Shown piece by piece: positions 6,455-23,388 of a DNA stretch of 64,000 nt. The stretch is from the NCBI RefSeq assembly GCF_004785685.1, contig NZ_SRPF01000001.1, positions 992,001-1,056,000 of the forward strand, given 5' to 3'. This DNA comes from Marinobacter confluentis. Its GTDB lineage: Bacteria; Pseudomonadota; Gammaproteobacteria; Pseudomonadales; Oleiphilaceae. Numbering within the stretch: position 1 is the first letter of the stretch; the number at the start of each line of letters is the position of its first letter. The notes under the pieces are model-generated. The model was not told the DNA's origin. It saw nothing but the letters and a program-made list of their open reading frames with translations, and made no database searches. A program made the translations under genes and the position numbers.

Positions 6455-6569
6455 AACACCTCGCTTTTCGTCAATTGTGACACAGTGGGTTTGCTGTTAG
6501 GCTTTGGTCGTAGTTTTCTAACAAAAATAAGGCCTATCGGCCACATCAGACCCCGACATCAGACGCTGA

Positions 6570-8003
6570 ATGATGAATGCACCCGTAGACCTCCGGAGTA
6601 CCGGTTCGACTGCCAGCAAGAGCGCCCTTCTGGATGCTCAGAACAATCCGGTGGCCATCCCTCCCATGCCGGATTACAACGGCAGGATTCTGGCCTACAC
6701 GGCAACCGGCAGCGTTATCGCGGCCGGGCTATCCCAGAATCTGTTCCCGGCCTGGATGATCTGGACGCTCGCTGCTGCCCTGATCTGGCCCCACGTGGCT
6801 CATCAACTTACCCGCCGGACCTTTCTACGCCATTCTGCCCGCATCCGGCAGAAAATGCTGCTAGTCGATTGTGCCATTGGTGGTGGCTTTATCGGCACCA
6901 TCGGGCTTGTGGTCATTCCGTCAATTTCGGTATTGCTGATGCTGATGTTCAGCTGCCTGATCATCGGCGGGGTCCGCCAGTGGGTGTTTGGCAGCCTGCT
7001 GACCATCGCCGCTGCGGCCGTCGCTGTCTGGATTGTTGGCCTGGCGCCCTCACCTCATTCGCCACTGCTGACCAGCCTTGTCTCGATACTGGCAACCGGC
7101 AGCTATATCTGTGTCACCGCATTCTATTCCCATCAGCAGGCCAGAGCCCTGATGATGGCGAAAACGCAGATCCAGAACCAGCGGGAGCAGTCCATTGCGC
7201 TCTCGCACAAGCTGTCGAAATATCTCTCGCCCCAGGTCTGGCAATCCATTTTCACCGGCGAGCGGGACGTCCGCCTGGAAACCCAGCGCAAAAAGCTCGC
7301 CGTGTTTTTCTCCGACATCAAAGGCTTCACTGAATTGTCTGAAGAAATGGAACCGGAAGCCCTGACCGAACTGCTGAACCACTACTTCAATGAAATGTCC
7401 GAGGTTGCCCTCAAGTACGGCGGCACCATCGACAAATTCGTGGGCGACTCCATCATGATCTTCTTTGGCGACCCTACCAGCCAGGGCCAGAAACAGGACG
7501 CCCTGTCCTGCGTGTCCATGGCCATCGATATGCGAAAGCATATGAAGATCATGCGCCAGAAATGGCGAAGCCAGGGCATCAAGACACCCCTGGAAATCCG
7601 TATGGGCATAAGTACCGGCTATACCACTGTGGGTAACTTCGGTGCCGAGAACCGGATGGATTACACCATCATCGGAAAAGAGGTCAACCTGGCCAGCCGC
7701 CTTGAATCCCTGGCGGAACCCGGTGAAATCCTGATTTCCTATGAAACCTTTTCACTGATCAAGGATCGGATCATGTGCCGGGACAAGGGCGAGATCACCG
7801 TGAAAGGCTTTGGCCGCCCGGTACCGATTTACGAAGTCGTGGATTTCCGCCGTGACATGGGGCCGAACCGGAGCTTTCTGGAACACGAACACAGTGGCTT
7901 TGCCATGTACCTGGATTCCGACAAGATCACCGAACGGGAACGGGAAACCATCCTATCGGCCCTGGAAGACGCCGCCGACCGGCTTCGGCGAGAAGAGGAA
8001 TAA
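6570..8003 (+). CDS. Membrane-bound class III adenylate/guanylate cyclase
   Basis: The 477-residue protein has an N-terminal hydrophobic region (residues about 45-180, several membrane segments) and a C-terminal class III nucleotide cyclase domain (about 230-430). The metal-binding aspartates are seen in AVFFSDIKGFTELSEE and DKFVGDSIMIFFGDP, and the transition-state Asn/Arg in GKEVNLASRLES. The linker before the domain (SHKLSKYLSPQVWQSIF) is typical of membrane cyclases. It probably makes cAMP in response to a membrane signal. The acidic C-terminal tail (RLRREEE) is unremarkable. It stands alone between convergent or divergent neighbours. Confidence 0.9.
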   Translation: MMNAPVDLRSTGSTASKSALLDAQNNPVAIPPMPDYNGRILAYTATGSVIAAGLSQNLFPAWMIWTLAAALIWPHVAHQLTRRTFLRHSARIRQKMLLVDCAIGGGFIGTIGLVVIPSISVLLMLMFSCLIIGGVRQWVFGSLLTIAAAAVAVWIVGLAPSPHSPLLTSLVSILATGSYICVTAFYSHQQARALMMAKTQIQNQREQSIALSHKLSKYLSPQVWQSIFTGERDVRLETQRKKLAVFFSDIKGFTELSEEMEPEALTELLNHYFNEMSEVALKYGGTIDKFVGDSIMIFFGDPTSQGQKQDALSCVSMAIDMRKHMKIMRQKWRSQGIKTPLEIRMGISTGYTTVGNFGAENRMDYTIIGKEVNLASRLESLAEPGEILISYETFSLIKDRIMCRDKGEITVKGFGRPVPIYEVVDFRRDMGPNRSFLEHEHSGFAMYLDSDKITERERETILSALEDAADRLRREEE

Positions 8004-20290: not shown

Positions 20291-20321
20291 CGGCCCGGGG
20301 TGCGAACTTCGGGCCTTTTTT
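20291..20321 (+). terminator. Rho-independent terminator of nrdJab
   Basis: GGCCCG and CGGGCC form a stem with a 12-nt loop and are followed at once by TTTTTT. It lies 26 bp after the nrdJb stop and isolates nrdJab from the cassette array that follows. Confidence 0.85.
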
Positions 20322-20445: not shown

Positions 20446-20539
20446 TTCAGCCTCAGCGCCACTTGTAGGTGTGCAGTTTTCACCGGGACAACGTTGCGGT
20501 CACATTTGGCGCGGCGCTGCGACCGACGCCTAATCACTG
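20446..20539. other. Left junction of the cassette array: imperfect inverted repeat
   Basis: CAGCGCC (20454-20460) pairs with GGCGCTG (20513-20519), and inside it GCGCCA/TGGCGC and TGTG/CACA also pair, giving a long attC-like foldback. It ends 19 bp before the first cassette join G|TTAGGAG. No standard attC ends or attI are clear, so it may be a degenerate attC or the original insertion site. A perfect TTGACA at 20368 has no good -10 partner. Nothing else is seen between the nrdJb terminator and the first cassette. Confidence 0.4.
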
Positions 20540-20554
20540 TTAGGAGGAATATAG

Positions 20555-21010
20555 ATGCTGACTGAGACCATATTCTCTCCCATCTGGTGGATCAGCGTAG
20601 TTTTCGTTGGTCTGTTGGTAAGTTTATCTGCATCGTATCTCAAGGAGTCACTGGACAACGCGCTAGCTAAAGTTAGTGCTCACCGCCGAGAGAAGAATGC
20701 GCAACGAAAGCAAGAATTTGATCAGACGGTCGAGCGTTTAAAAAGCGATCGATCTGAGTTTGCGGAGTATGTGTTACTTACCAATGATCTATCGCACCGT
20801 TTCCTCACGGCATCTTTTGCAGCAATATTTATTGTTGGCGGAGTAAATCTGCTACTCCTTTCTTTCGGCGAAGAGACCTTGGATGGAATAGCCAAGGCTG
20901 CCTTTCTTTCTGGGATGGCGCTGCTAAGCGTTTGCATGGTATCCGCTTACTCGGATATCGAAAAAATCGGAGAAAGACGCAAGGTCATTGATCATGTTTC
21001 GCGCTCCTAA
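20555..21010 (+). CDS. Cassette 1: small membrane protein of unknown function
   Basis: The 151-residue protein has a hydrophobic segment at residues about 10-30 (IWWISVVFVGLLVSLSASYL), a charged helical stretch (about 35-70, probably a coiled coil), and two more hydrophobic segments (FLTASFAAIFIVGGVNLLLL and FLSGMALLSVCMVSAYS). TTAGGAGG directly after the cassette join supplies the ribosome site. The stop codon is inside attC1, as is common in cassettes. I do not recognise the family. Confidence 0.8.
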   Translation: MLTETIFSPIWWISVVFVGLLVSLSASYLKESLDNALAKVSAHRREKNAQRKQEFDQTVERLKSDRSEFAEYVLLTNDLSHRFLTASFAAIFIVGGVNLLLLSFGEETLDGIAKAAFLSGMALLSVCMVSAYSDIEKIGERRKVIDHVSRS

Positions 21011-21090
21011 CAATCACAGGCACGGCGACGGTTACTGCATTGCGGCTACGCCTCCATTCCGTAACCGCGCGTGCTGAGCGGCGTTATAAC
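21004..21090 (+). other. attC1 recombination site
   Basis: Inverse core CTCCTAAC (21004-21011) and core GTTATAAC (21083-21090) flank a foldback in which GGTTAC pairs with GTAACC and GCAC with GTGC. The join is between G 21083 and TT 21084. The inverse core is complementary to the start of cassette 1 (GTTAGGAG at 20539). Confidence 0.85.
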
Positions 21091-21103
21091 TAAAGGAGGG
21101 GCC

Positions 21104-22072
21104 GTGAGTAGGTGCGCATTTATATTCGGGAATGGTCTGGGGCGGTCTCTTGACAATGACTATTTCCAGCTTTCCTCCGGGCTTTCGCATGTATGGAATG
21201 ATCGAGAGGGATTTACCCAGGCCCAGAAGGATTTGGTTATTTCAGCCATCGAGGGATTGAATGCTGAAGAATATCCACAGTCTGAGGAACAGCTTGATAA
21301 ATTGCAGGTTGCCATCGTTGCGGCGGGGTTCTTACGTTCATTCGAGACCGATAAAGTTCAGTGGCTGAATGACCATTCGAGAGATTTGCCGGTAGCTTTT
21401 CGAAAATTCATTCACGAAGTTGCATGTTATTTCCATGATTCTGGAAAACAGCTACCGAGAGAATTTATAGATCCTCTGGCGCAATTTGTAAGGGAAACTG
21501 CATCGCATATTGGCGTTTTGAACTATGACAACCTTCTTTATGACGGGTTTGTTAAAGAGGGCATCCTAAACGGTTATCGGGATGTCTTGAATGATGGGTT
21601 TAGAGCCGCTGGGTTCAATCCTGACTTCATGAATCGACATAGAATTAGCCGTCAAGCATGGTACATGCATCTCCATGGTTCACCATTGTACATCGGAAAT
21701 AAAAAGTTAATGGGAGGAGCTCGAGCAGACCTTTCGCCCTCTTCAAATTCGCACATCGTTCTCACTCACGTCAGACATAAGCCCCTGATCATCAGCTCGT
21801 CAAATGTCCTTTCAGAGTATTGGCAGCGCTTAGGAAAGGCTCTCGGAGAGTCAACGCGTGCAATTCTCGTGGGTTACTCAGGGTACGATGAGCATTTAAA
21901 CCAGCTCATACAATCAAGGCTTCGAGAAAAGAATATTCAAATCCTTGAAAGGAAGGATCAGGAAACACAGGAAAGCCGAGAGCGATTCTGGAGAGCACGG
22001 TTCACAAAATGTGATGTTCGTGTCACTCGTGTCGAGAATATATTGGAGTTCGCAGCATGGCGCGACCTTTAG
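21104..22072 (+). CDS. Cassette 2: SIR2-like domain protein, candidate anti-phage NADase
   Basis: The 322-residue protein shows SIR2-type features: an N-terminal nucleotide-binding motif FIFGNGLGRSL (residues about 6-16), an LNYDNLLYDG motif (about 138-147), the His-Gly of HLHGSPLY (about 188-195) and LVGYSGYDEHLNQLI (about 255). In defence systems such SIR2-like domains degrade NAD+ during infection. The GTG at 21104 is chosen because AAAGGAGGGG precedes it; an upstream in-frame start would lie across the cassette join. The sequence also recalls DUF4917-type SIR2 relatives. Partner proteins, if any, are not obvious. Confidence 0.75.
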   Translation: MSRCAFIFGNGLGRSLDNDYFQLSSGLSHVWNDREGFTQAQKDLVISAIEGLNAEEYPQSEEQLDKLQVAIVAAGFLRSFETDKVQWLNDHSRDLPVAFRKFIHEVACYFHDSGKQLPREFIDPLAQFVRETASHIGVLNYDNLLYDGFVKEGILNGYRDVLNDGFRAAGFNPDFMNRHRISRQAWYMHLHGSPLYIGNKKLMGGARADLSPSSNSHIVLTHVRHKPLIISSSNVLSEYWQRLGKALGESTRAILVGYSGYDEHLNQLIQSRLREKNIQILERKDQETQESRERFWRARFTKCDVRVTRVENILEFAAWRDL

Positions 22073-22073
22073 T

Positions 22074-22147
22074 TTATAACCATGTGGTCAACGGGACGCC
22101 AACTGCGCTGCGCTCCGTTGTCGCCCATTACCACTGGCGTTAGCTAG
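22074..22147 (+). other. attC2 recombination site
   Basis: Inverse core TTATAAC (22074-22080), complementary to the start of cassette 2, then GTGGT pairing with ACCAC and CAACGGGACGC pairing imperfectly with GCGCTCCGTTG, and the core GCGTTAGCTA with the join after G 22139. Confidence 0.86.
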
Positions 22148-22179: not shown

Positions 22180-23325
22180 ATGGCGGACAAGTCTGAAGAA
22201 GAGCGTATTAATGATGCAAGAGCCAAAAAGGCGGGAAAGCAAAGGCCGTTCCCAGCTTGCCCTTTTTTGGAAGCGTTAGATTTGGCGAAGTCCCTGCTTG
22301 AGTATGGGAGTGGGCAGCCAGTTCGGAGGATAAGTCTTTTTGATCATATTGGTAAATCTCCGGAGAGTGGTACATCTAGACAGTGGATAACCAACGCTAG
22401 CAAATATGGTTTAACAAAGGGAAGTTATAAAGCAGAGCATCTGGAATTAACCCCAGAGGGAGCGAAAGCAGTTGACGAGGAGCTCTCAGAGCGAGAAAGA
22501 ACGAAGGCAAAAGTGGGCCTCGCAATTGAAAATATTGACACATTCAACCAGCTTTACGAGAAGTTCGTCGGGAACAAATTACCTGCACGTGCTGCTATGG
22601 TCGATTCAGCCAGAGATATCGGGGTGCCAGAAAAGTTTCTAGAGGAGGCTGTAGATACTTTCATTGTTAACCTCCGGGATTTGGGATTGTTGCAGACTTT
22701 ATCTGGGGCAGAGCGCATAGTAACAGTTGAACACTTGCTCGACACACTCCCAAGCGGGACACCTAGACAAGCTACACCAAAACCCCATCCTCATTCCCCT
22801 AGCAATTTGGTTACGCTTGAGCATGCTTCGTTCGAAAATACTTGTTTTTATATCACTCCGATTGGCGAAGATGGTAGCGAACAACGTAAACACTCCGATT
22901 TATTTTTAGGATCAATTATAGAGCCCGCCCTTGAGCAGTTTCAGCTAAAAGTTGTTCGAGCTGATAATATCGATAAGCCAGGATTTATAACACGTCAAAT
23001 TATTGATTACCTGCTACGCTCGAGGCTTGTTATAGCCGATTTGTCATTTCATAATCCAAATGTCTTTTATGAGCTGGCTATAAGGCACGCTGCTCGGTTA
23101 CCGGTCGTGCAAATAATTCGTGCAGCGGAAAGAATTCCTTTTGACCTTAATCAGGTTCGGACAATAAAGATTGATACTACCGACATATACTCACTCGTGC
23201 CGCGTATCGCTACCTATCAATCGGAAATTAGCAATCAAGTTCGGCGGGCACTGGAAGATCCTGATTCGGTCGACAACCCAGTTTCGTTTTTTTACCCAAA
23301 TTTTGTGGCACGTATCGACGGTTGA
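22180..23325 (+). CDS. Cassette 3: winged-helix-like and nucleoside 2-deoxyribosyltransferase-like fusion
   Basis: The 381-residue protein has two parts. Residues about 25-200 look like helix-turn-helix/winged-helix modules (LFDHIGKSPESGTSRQWITN, LTPEGAKAVDEELSERER). Residues about 222-350 form a Rossmann-like domain: FYITPIGEDGSEQRKHSDLF, then LVIADLSFHNPNVFYELAIR. The Asp-Leu and Asn-Pro-Asn-hydrophobic-Glu pattern is that of nucleoside 2-deoxyribosyltransferase-like proteins, where the Glu is the nucleophile. Such domains occur in defence loci and could act on a nucleotide, but no activity is demonstrated here. A regulator that senses nucleosides is an alternative. Confidence 0.72.
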   Translation: MADKSEEERINDARAKKAGKQRPFPACPFLEALDLAKSLLEYGSGQPVRRISLFDHIGKSPESGTSRQWITNASKYGLTKGSYKAEHLELTPEGAKAVDEELSERERTKAKVGLAIENIDTFNQLYEKFVGNKLPARAAMVDSARDIGVPEKFLEEAVDTFIVNLRDLGLLQTLSGAERIVTVEHLLDTLPSGTPRQATPKPHPHSPSNLVTLEHASFENTCFYITPIGEDGSEQRKHSDLFLGSIIEPALEQFQLKVVRADNIDKPGFITRQIIDYLLRSRLVIADLSFHNPNVFYELAIRHAARLPVVQIIRAAERIPFDLNQVRTIKIDTTDIYSLVPRIATYQSEISNQVRRALEDPDSVDNPVSFFYPNFVARIDG

Positions 23326-23388
23326 TAGCTAACAATTGCAGCCAAGGGACGCTCCTGGCGTCGCGCCCCTGCTGCTGGCGTTAAGCAT
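23326..23388 (+). other. attC3 recombination site
   Basis: A compact, near-ideal attC: inverse core TAGCTAAC (23326-23333), complementary to the start of cassette 3. Then GCAGC pairs with GCTGC, AGGGACGC pairs imperfectly with GCGTCGCGCCCCT, and GCGTTAAGC forms the core. The join is after G 23380. Confidence 0.9.

Follow-up and report, generated by a model that had tools for sequence, protein, structure and literature searches.

A SIR2_2-family gene filling one integron cassette in Marinobacter confluentis: a candidate one-gene NAD+-consuming defence effector

To our knowledge, the SIR2 defence proteins known so far all have a sensor region or depend on a partner. A gene of Marinobacter confluentis that encodes little beyond a SIR2 unit raises the question of whether such a protein can act as a defence unit by itself. 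A first-pass annotation of the window (the whole stretch of 64,000 nucleotides analysed here) had described it as a SIR2-like gene that forms one mobile cassette and as a candidate stand-alone, NAD-depleting defence protein. Both integron-borne anti-phage genes and the SIR2 NADase defence class are already published, and a passage of PMC12409362 presents integrons as stores of anti-phage genes, with small defence genes slimmed to one cassette. The best reading of our results is a one-gene NAD+-consuming effector found in integrons and in prophages.

Cassette anatomy and array site

The open reading frame was recovered where the first-pass annotation had placed it, from a GTG start at 21104 to the stop at 22072 (Table 1). 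A second in-frame GTG lies at 21071, ahead of the cassette boundary, and AAAGGAGG lies at 21092, 5' of the start at 21104. The gene had also been called one complete cassette, and this held: it is the sole gene between an R' core (GTTATAA, 21083), 21 bp upstream of its start, and an R'' core (TTATAAC, from 22074), one base off its stop, and the two cores pair exactly. The flanking cassettes are chained by exact R'/R'' pairs as well (GTTAGGA 20539 with TCCTAAC 21005, GTTAGCT 22139 with AGCTAAC 23327, and GTTAAGC 23380 with GCTTAAC 23915). Cassette ends were called by this chaining test, after earlier attC scans had given either no sites or unspecific lists. In the control, seven stretches of the window gave three chance matches, all unchained, and extra unchained matches were also present in the window and in L122, the locus of sister genome G025. 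The attC hairpin energies were not decisive by themselves: only the site at 22074-22145 clearly exceeded shuffled sequences, and a fourth site and the left edge gave z values of -0.64 and -0.96. The G+C content was 43.5-46.5% in the four cassette genes, 58% in the nrdJ and TSCPD genes beside them and 56% in the window.

Table 1. Coordinates of the SIR2 gene, of its cassette and array in the window, and of the partner genes at four related loci.
Feature	Position	Strand	Details
Terminator-like hairpin	20292..20315	+	between TSCPD gene and array
Array left edge	20490..20545	+	first GTTAGGA core at 20539; 20490-20542 83% identical to same place in G102
Preceding cassette gene	20555..21010	+	151 aa; no family above cut-off
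attC ending preceding cassette	21005..21089	+	R'' TCCTAAC to R' GTTATAA, 85 bp; bottom-strand hairpin -17.6 kcal/mol, z -1.56
SIR2-gene cassette	21084..22139	+	1056 bp, after G of one R' core to G of next; exact R'/R'' match
SIR2_2-family gene	21104..22072	+	322 aa; Asn140 (NYD), His191 (HGSP), GNGLG start, GYSGYDEHL motif
attC of SIR2 cassette	22074..22145	+	R'' TTATAAC to R' GTTAGCT, 72 bp; hairpin -16.4 kcal/mol, z -2.78
Following cassette gene	22180..23325	+	381 aa; weakly TIR-effector-like C-terminal region (PADLOC PDLC00733, 5e-9)
attC of following cassette	23327..23386	+	R'' AGCTAAC to R' GTTAAGC; hairpin z -1.22
Partner genes at related loci	L033:5342-6001; L077:5374-5988; L078:5402-6004; L080, frame ending 6001		~200 aa; upstream, overlapping or abutting SIR2 gene

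The array lies directly beyond nrdJ (our reading of the ORF beside it) and a TSCPD partner gene (assigned by Pfam), past the terminator-like hairpin, with the first core 224 bp beyond the latter. The left-flank sequence was found in 58 of 61 genomes of the genus; outside the own genome its main matches stop at or before 20387, short of the array; G102 alone has a further matching stretch, at 20490-20542, beside its main match. At the same site, G025 has other cassettes with exact cores and related attC sites: 94% identity over 68 bp with the attC of the SIR2 cassette (22074..22145) and 84% over 82 bp with that of the preceding cassette (21005..21089). G108 has one attC-bounded unit at the nrdJ-side site. 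At the G025 site (L122:3778-5132), a ThsB_TIR protein and a SLATT_3/SLATT_1 protein are encoded in tandem behind an attC, and an ankyrin protein is also found among the cassettes. The nrdJ-side array thus holds distinct defence-like cassettes in two species, making turnover of defence genes observable at one fixed site.

Neither an adjacent intI nor an attI was found at the window array. The genome has one full-length integron integrase above the integron-integrase cut-off, on contig C62, outside the window; it sits there with cassettes of its own. The window array is thus an integrase-less cassette cluster, in principle a possible substrate for the chromosomal integrase. On C62 (L020:11686-14765), the intact integrase and its attC-bounded cassettes reach the contig end, apart from the window array. 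A lost local attI was considered and is unsupported, since the left edge is no more like the attI region beside the C62 integrase than shuffled sequences are (score 11.5; mean of shuffles 11.6). No integrase above the curated cut-off was detected in G025, G102 or G108. In G102, which keeps the left array edge near nrdJ, an integron-integrase-like sequence in two pieces was present under the cut-off (contig C3:96815-97238).

No sigma-70-like promoter was detected 5' of the SIR2 gene within the array. Since such a promoter-like site is absent and the terminator-like hairpin shields the array, the gene may be silent there, and its expression from the window array is doubtful. The protein search of 72,556 plasmid records gave one match, annotated as 'SIR2 family protein', on pMAQU01 of Marinobacter nauticus VT8. 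The DNA of the two copies is 90.5% identical over 21083-22134, from the left core to 5 bp short of the right core, and no other part of 20300-24300 matches the pMAQU01 locus; the cassette cores of the VT8 copy are altered. The gene is therefore present on two replicons that, within this range, share only the SIR2 cassette, which shows past movement and agrees with the mobile cassette proposed earlier. The differences between the two copies are distributed 17/9/55 over the three codon positions, with dN of 0.035 and dS of 0.316 (dN/dS near 0.11), and the protein is thus under purifying selection.

Predicted fold and NAD-site residues

The assignment of the protein to the SIR2 type was borne out by Pfam (SIR2_2, PF13289; 34.8 bits against a cut-off of 24.5), and the four motifs named in the first-pass annotation were all present (FIFGNGLGRSL; LNYDN, with N140; HGSPL, with H191; GYSGYD). 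The structure prediction proposed there as a check was run, and the AlphaFold2 model (pLDDT 87, pTM 0.87) shows a SIR2 Rossmann fold. Foldseek gave eight matches under 1e-3, all of them SIR2 proteins of SIR2-HerA systems, and the highest VIA-align Z scores likewise belonged to SIR2-HerA structures (8yhx, 19.2 over 280 residues with rmsd 4.5; 8w9l, 18.5; 8suw, 17.4), followed by KomBC (14.7), ThsA (14.3), DSR2 (14.1), CobB (13.8) and SPARSA (13.4). No other Pfam family than SIR2_2 was above its cut-off and the whole 322 aa align to the SIR2 unit, so that neither Pfam nor the predicted structure reveals a sensor domain; a SLOG or macro ligand domain was not detected by Pfam either.

Sequence comparisons gave weaker signals. 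HMMER matched the NYD and HLHGSP motifs to TTNYD and KLHGS of PsSIR2, but at an E value of 0.017 only, and the PDB searched by sequence yielded weak matches in which designed proteins rank above or beside SIR2 ones. No NCBIfam model was above its cut-off (best 0.0079 for the window protein), PHROGs gave a single match (0.083), and the viral structure library gave none at E 1e-3. Among the PADLOC models, PDLC02414 matched 47 of 51 members at 1e-3, at similar length, and PDC-S21 matched 36 of 51 rows weakly (best 7e-10), with no match to the window protein at 1e-3.

Alignment A2 comprised the window protein and 50 of 80 loci, after exclusion of truncated, broken and near-identical loci. In all 51 rows N10, G11, G13, N140, Y141, D142, H189, H191, G192 and P194 were invariant, and so were K226, W240, G257, G260, D262 and H264. 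The invariance of NYD and HLHGSP is partly by construction, because relatives were fetched with patterns containing both; the residues of the two motifs were also constant in the ten rows of alignment A1, found with the whole protein. Passages of two studies bear on the function of these residues in fold relatives: immunity by SIR2-HerA in V. cholerae requires the Asn and His of this site (PMC11559045), and NAD+ loss by bAgaS requires an Asn (PMC10620215). From the Asn/His site shared with these relatives, we infer that the window protein may have NADase chemistry.

Carriers, neighbours and possible partners

Counting its own genome each time, relatives of the gene were found in 3 of 124 genomes of the genus, in 8 of 390 of the order (one of these 8 matches, in G326, covers just 64 residues, and its frame is interrupted by stops) and in 1 of 369 of the class. 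First scans of genomes and viral sequences with the single protein found no relative, and phage records gave no match to the window protein or to an E. coli relative. The search with a ten-row alignment recovered 67 loci in a genome collection of 84,980 species and 13 in viral contigs. The set of 85 loci used below consists of 79 of the 80 loci from this alignment search (L091 was omitted), the window, L012, L021, L022, L025 and L028. L027 was excluded as a near-duplicate of L028, and L023, L024 and L026 are the same genes as L039, L040 and L057.

Exact cassette cores were found in six of the 85 loci, namely the window and loci of Aquabacterium (L031), Marinomonas (L043), Photobacterium (L054), Pseudoalteromonas (L056) and Saccharospirillum (L057); the chance expectation, obtained by pairing the upstream side of a locus with the downstream side of another, was 0.35 such loci, or 0.11 when those six were excluded. 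The six exact cassettes fall at three places on a midpoint-rooted tree in which 11 of 52 inner branches are open and some end branches are long. In E. coli, the lineage is present in 45 of 5426 complete genomes, at chromosomal places in all 45, and the two copies examined both lie among prophage genes (annotated as DicB or DicA/DicC, YdaT, RusA), preceded by a DUF977 gene and followed by hokD, in prophages that we take to be lambdoid. On the tree, this prophage lineage falls within a clade that also contains cassette-borne genes. In particular, an E. albertii row (L063) and a viral-contig row (L096) form a group (100/97) with the Saccharospirillum cassette, and the clade enclosing this group (100/99) holds two further exact cassettes. 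The upstream neighbours of L063 match those of the viral-contig copies L099-L103, and L096 adjoins a phage tail gene. Because prophage-type rows group with cassette rows on the tree, one gene lineage occurs both in integron cassettes and, as an accessory gene, in prophages. Other viral-contig members group with Pseudomonas loci, and the one checked has an MvaT-type gene upstream.

Other settings of the relatives were also recorded. In L022 (G049), the relative (6510-7478) seems by eye to be flanked by a direct repeat of the end of a metallopeptidase-like gene, which suggests a different insertion mechanism. Relatives lie directly behind enolase in L079, L086 and L088 and directly behind thyX in L042 and L065, a repeated insertion beside housekeeping genes.

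We clustered the 621 neighbouring ORFs of the 85 loci, and each of the 22 largest clusters covered at most 8 loci. Most of these clusters corresponded to related Pseudomonas loci, near-identical E. coli-type prophages and shared insertion sites, the exception being a partner gene at four loci; apart from this coupled gene in 4 of 85, the 22 clusters contained no partner common to relatives. A same-strand ORF within 30 bp was found upstream in 12 of the 85 loci and downstream in 9, and these ORFs were unrelated, apart from the four-locus partner. Some members of the family may need a partner, given the coupled gene at four loci and these close same-strand ORFs. PADLOC was run on 89 of 112 immediate neighbours (set A3), and there was no strong defence-island signal, as each defence family matched at most 2 of the 89 among the 25 of 118 families listed.

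The four partner genes belong to Alphaproteobacteria and their products share 27-74% mutual identity; on the tree, the SIR2 protein of L033 stands apart from those of L077, L078 and L080. No Pfam family was assigned to the two partners scanned, and no PADLOC family under 1e-2 to the three scanned. The best model of the partner, built from four sequences, reached a pLDDT of 86, with three of the five models near 41. It resembles nucleases of the Cas4/RecB type (Foldseek, ACE1 3e-5), and its Z scores of 8.5-9.6 for AdnAB, ACE1, Dna2, Cas4 and RecE are barely above the usual background. Across its central strands (residues 98-136), the four sequences have no acidic or lysine position in common, and on this ground the partner may be a dead nuclease fold, a suggestion drawn from four sequences only. 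A two-gene SIR2 system is thus possible in Alphaproteobacteria.

The stand-alone character claimed for the window gene was examined in its own assembly (99.99% complete), where it is the one SIR2_2 gene, and the claim gained support: the gene fills one cassette, and the families of HerA (DUF87), Piwi and ThsB_TIR were unmatched in the whole assembly. DUF87/HerA gave no match among 54 candidates scored in the genome (controls matched in 14 of 14 genomes), nor among the scanned neighbouring genes. Piwi (PF02171) gave 0 matches, with controls matched in 1 of 14 genomes. ThsB_TIR (PF08937), the sole TIR family searched genome-wide, also gave 0 matches; the gene of the next cassette is weakly TIR-like.

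These searches weigh on the reading that the cassette is half a system, encoding a SIR2 effector in need of a partner or of a signal from another system of the cell, as for KomC, bAgaS and SIR2-HerA. The nearest folds (SIR2-HerA, KomBC) do act with partners, the ~200-aa partner gene adjoins the SIR2 gene on its upstream side, with or without overlap, in 4 of 85 loci, and, according to a passage of PMC10620215, bAgaS is a SIR2_2 protein that depletes NAD+, kills cells when alone and is restrained by its pAgo. Nevertheless, we consider this reading unlikely, as none of the 22 largest neighbour clusters covers more than 8 of 85 loci, and most of them consist of Pseudomonas or E. coli prophage sets, shared insertion sites or the four-locus partner; the alphaproteobacterial partner has no match in the window genome (in a search without positive control), and DUF87, Piwi and ThsB_TIR were unmatched there too.

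Proposed action and known systems

The protein could instead be an enzyme of general stress or competition that processes NAD, or a protein-modifying SIR2 (by deacylation or ADP-ribosyl transfer), with no anti-phage role. The SIR2 fold is indeed common to deacylases such as CobB and to SIRT5, and in four Rhodobacterales loci (L044, L072, L073 and L083) a gene for nicotinate phosphoribosyltransferase (NAPRTase, NAD salvage) precedes the SIR2 gene by 43-54 bp, which may reflect either a shared insertion site or a functional link. This role appears improbable, however, since the best folds and the Pfam family are those of the defence-type SIR2_2 and not of the canonical SIR2, and the distribution is patchy, with prophages and cassettes as carriers. 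Finally, a decaying passenger, stranded without integrase or promoter and no longer expressed or selected, would fit the absence of a local intI and of a promoter-like site, the terminator-like hairpin upstream and the altered cores of the VT8 copy, but is very improbable given the intact frame, the strong ribosome-binding site, the low dN/dS against the plasmid copy and the intI elsewhere in the genome.

Considering fold, residues, distribution and carriers together, we favour the reading that the protein is probably a gated NADase acting in abortive infection. The compact, single-domain SIR2_2 protein would bind and consume NAD+, and would idle until triggered by a phage-made protein or ligand. 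As the protein shows no sensor domain, we expect it to become active when a phage component or small ligand binds it directly. The trigger would probably drive the formation of an oligomer or filament, as in ThsA and KomC. Activation linked to oligomerisation is known for DSR2, ThsA and KomC, and PDB titles describe DSR2 together with a phage tail tube protein, and ThsA and KomC in helical form. Depletion of NAD+ would then leave the infected cell unable to support phage growth. Such a gene would need no linked partner and would therefore suit a one-gene integron cassette, and prophages carrying the same lineage would use it against rival phages.

More tentatively, the ~320-aa SIR2_2 NADase family might work as a complete immune unit of a single gene that moves between integron cassettes and prophages. 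The alphaproteobacterial partner, with its predicted Cas4/RecB-like fold and no conserved acidic site, may on this proposal be a DNA sensor, which the one-gene form would either do without or make up for by detecting the phage itself. If true, a compact SIR2 gene that fits one cassette and one prophage slot would show a minimal NADase defence unit, and integrons and prophages would share one pool of such units. The system would also make a simple test case, with one gene, two active-site residues and relatives from E. coli that are open to assay in K-12.

Among known systems, the SIR2 subunit of SIR2-HerA (Nezha) is the best structural match, over 280 of the 322 residues, with the same Asn/His site and likewise no domain beyond the SIR2 unit, but identity is ~16%. 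HerA is needed in that system, according to a passage of PMC11559045, and membership was rejected as the window genome has no DUF87 match. The bAgaS/Aga_SIR2 proteins of long-B pAgo systems provide the closest PADLOC models (judging by their name, the Aga_SIR2 models presumably stand for bAgaS), but the scores are weak and the window genome has no Piwi match. Membership of SPARSA/BPAS (pAgo-SIR2) was rejected because the genome gave no match to a Piwi-domain Argonaute (PF02171).

DSR1 and DSR2 are, like the reading proposed here, one-gene SIR2 defences with a SIR2 fold (Z ~14), but DSR2 chains have 919-992 residues and their C-terminal part senses phage, whereas the window protein is the SIR2 unit alone; membership was rejected because 322 aa leave no residues for a large C-terminal sensor region. 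ThsA (Thoeris) and KomC (Kongming) are SIR2 effectors solved as helical assemblies (Z ~14), and KomC is also small (264-277 residues). KomC works with KomA/KomB, and ThsA works with ThsB, whose family (PF08937) is unmatched in the window genome. ThsA has a SLOG ligand domain (in a passage of PMC11204291), and Thoeris membership was not adopted, as Pfam gave no SLOG or macro domain on the window protein and PF08937, the one TIR family searched across the genome, gave no match. A Thoeris-like pair of the SIR2 gene and the neighbouring TIR-like gene was rejected as well: the two lie in separate cassettes, and the genomes matched by one and by the other (8 of 390 and 10 of 194, in differing samples) have only the own genome in common. 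The TIR-like protein has a relative of 56% identity in G217 and weaker, scattered ones, the 10 of 194 genomes of the order including its own.

Among the literature matches listed, there was no SIR2 integron cassette or compact SIR2_2 family; Darracq 2025, Kieffer 2025 and Getz 2025 reportedly describe anti-phage cassettes of Vibrio and mobile integrons. It is these integron-borne anti-phage cassettes that the M. confluentis gene would resemble in its organisation, as a defence gene compacted into one cassette.
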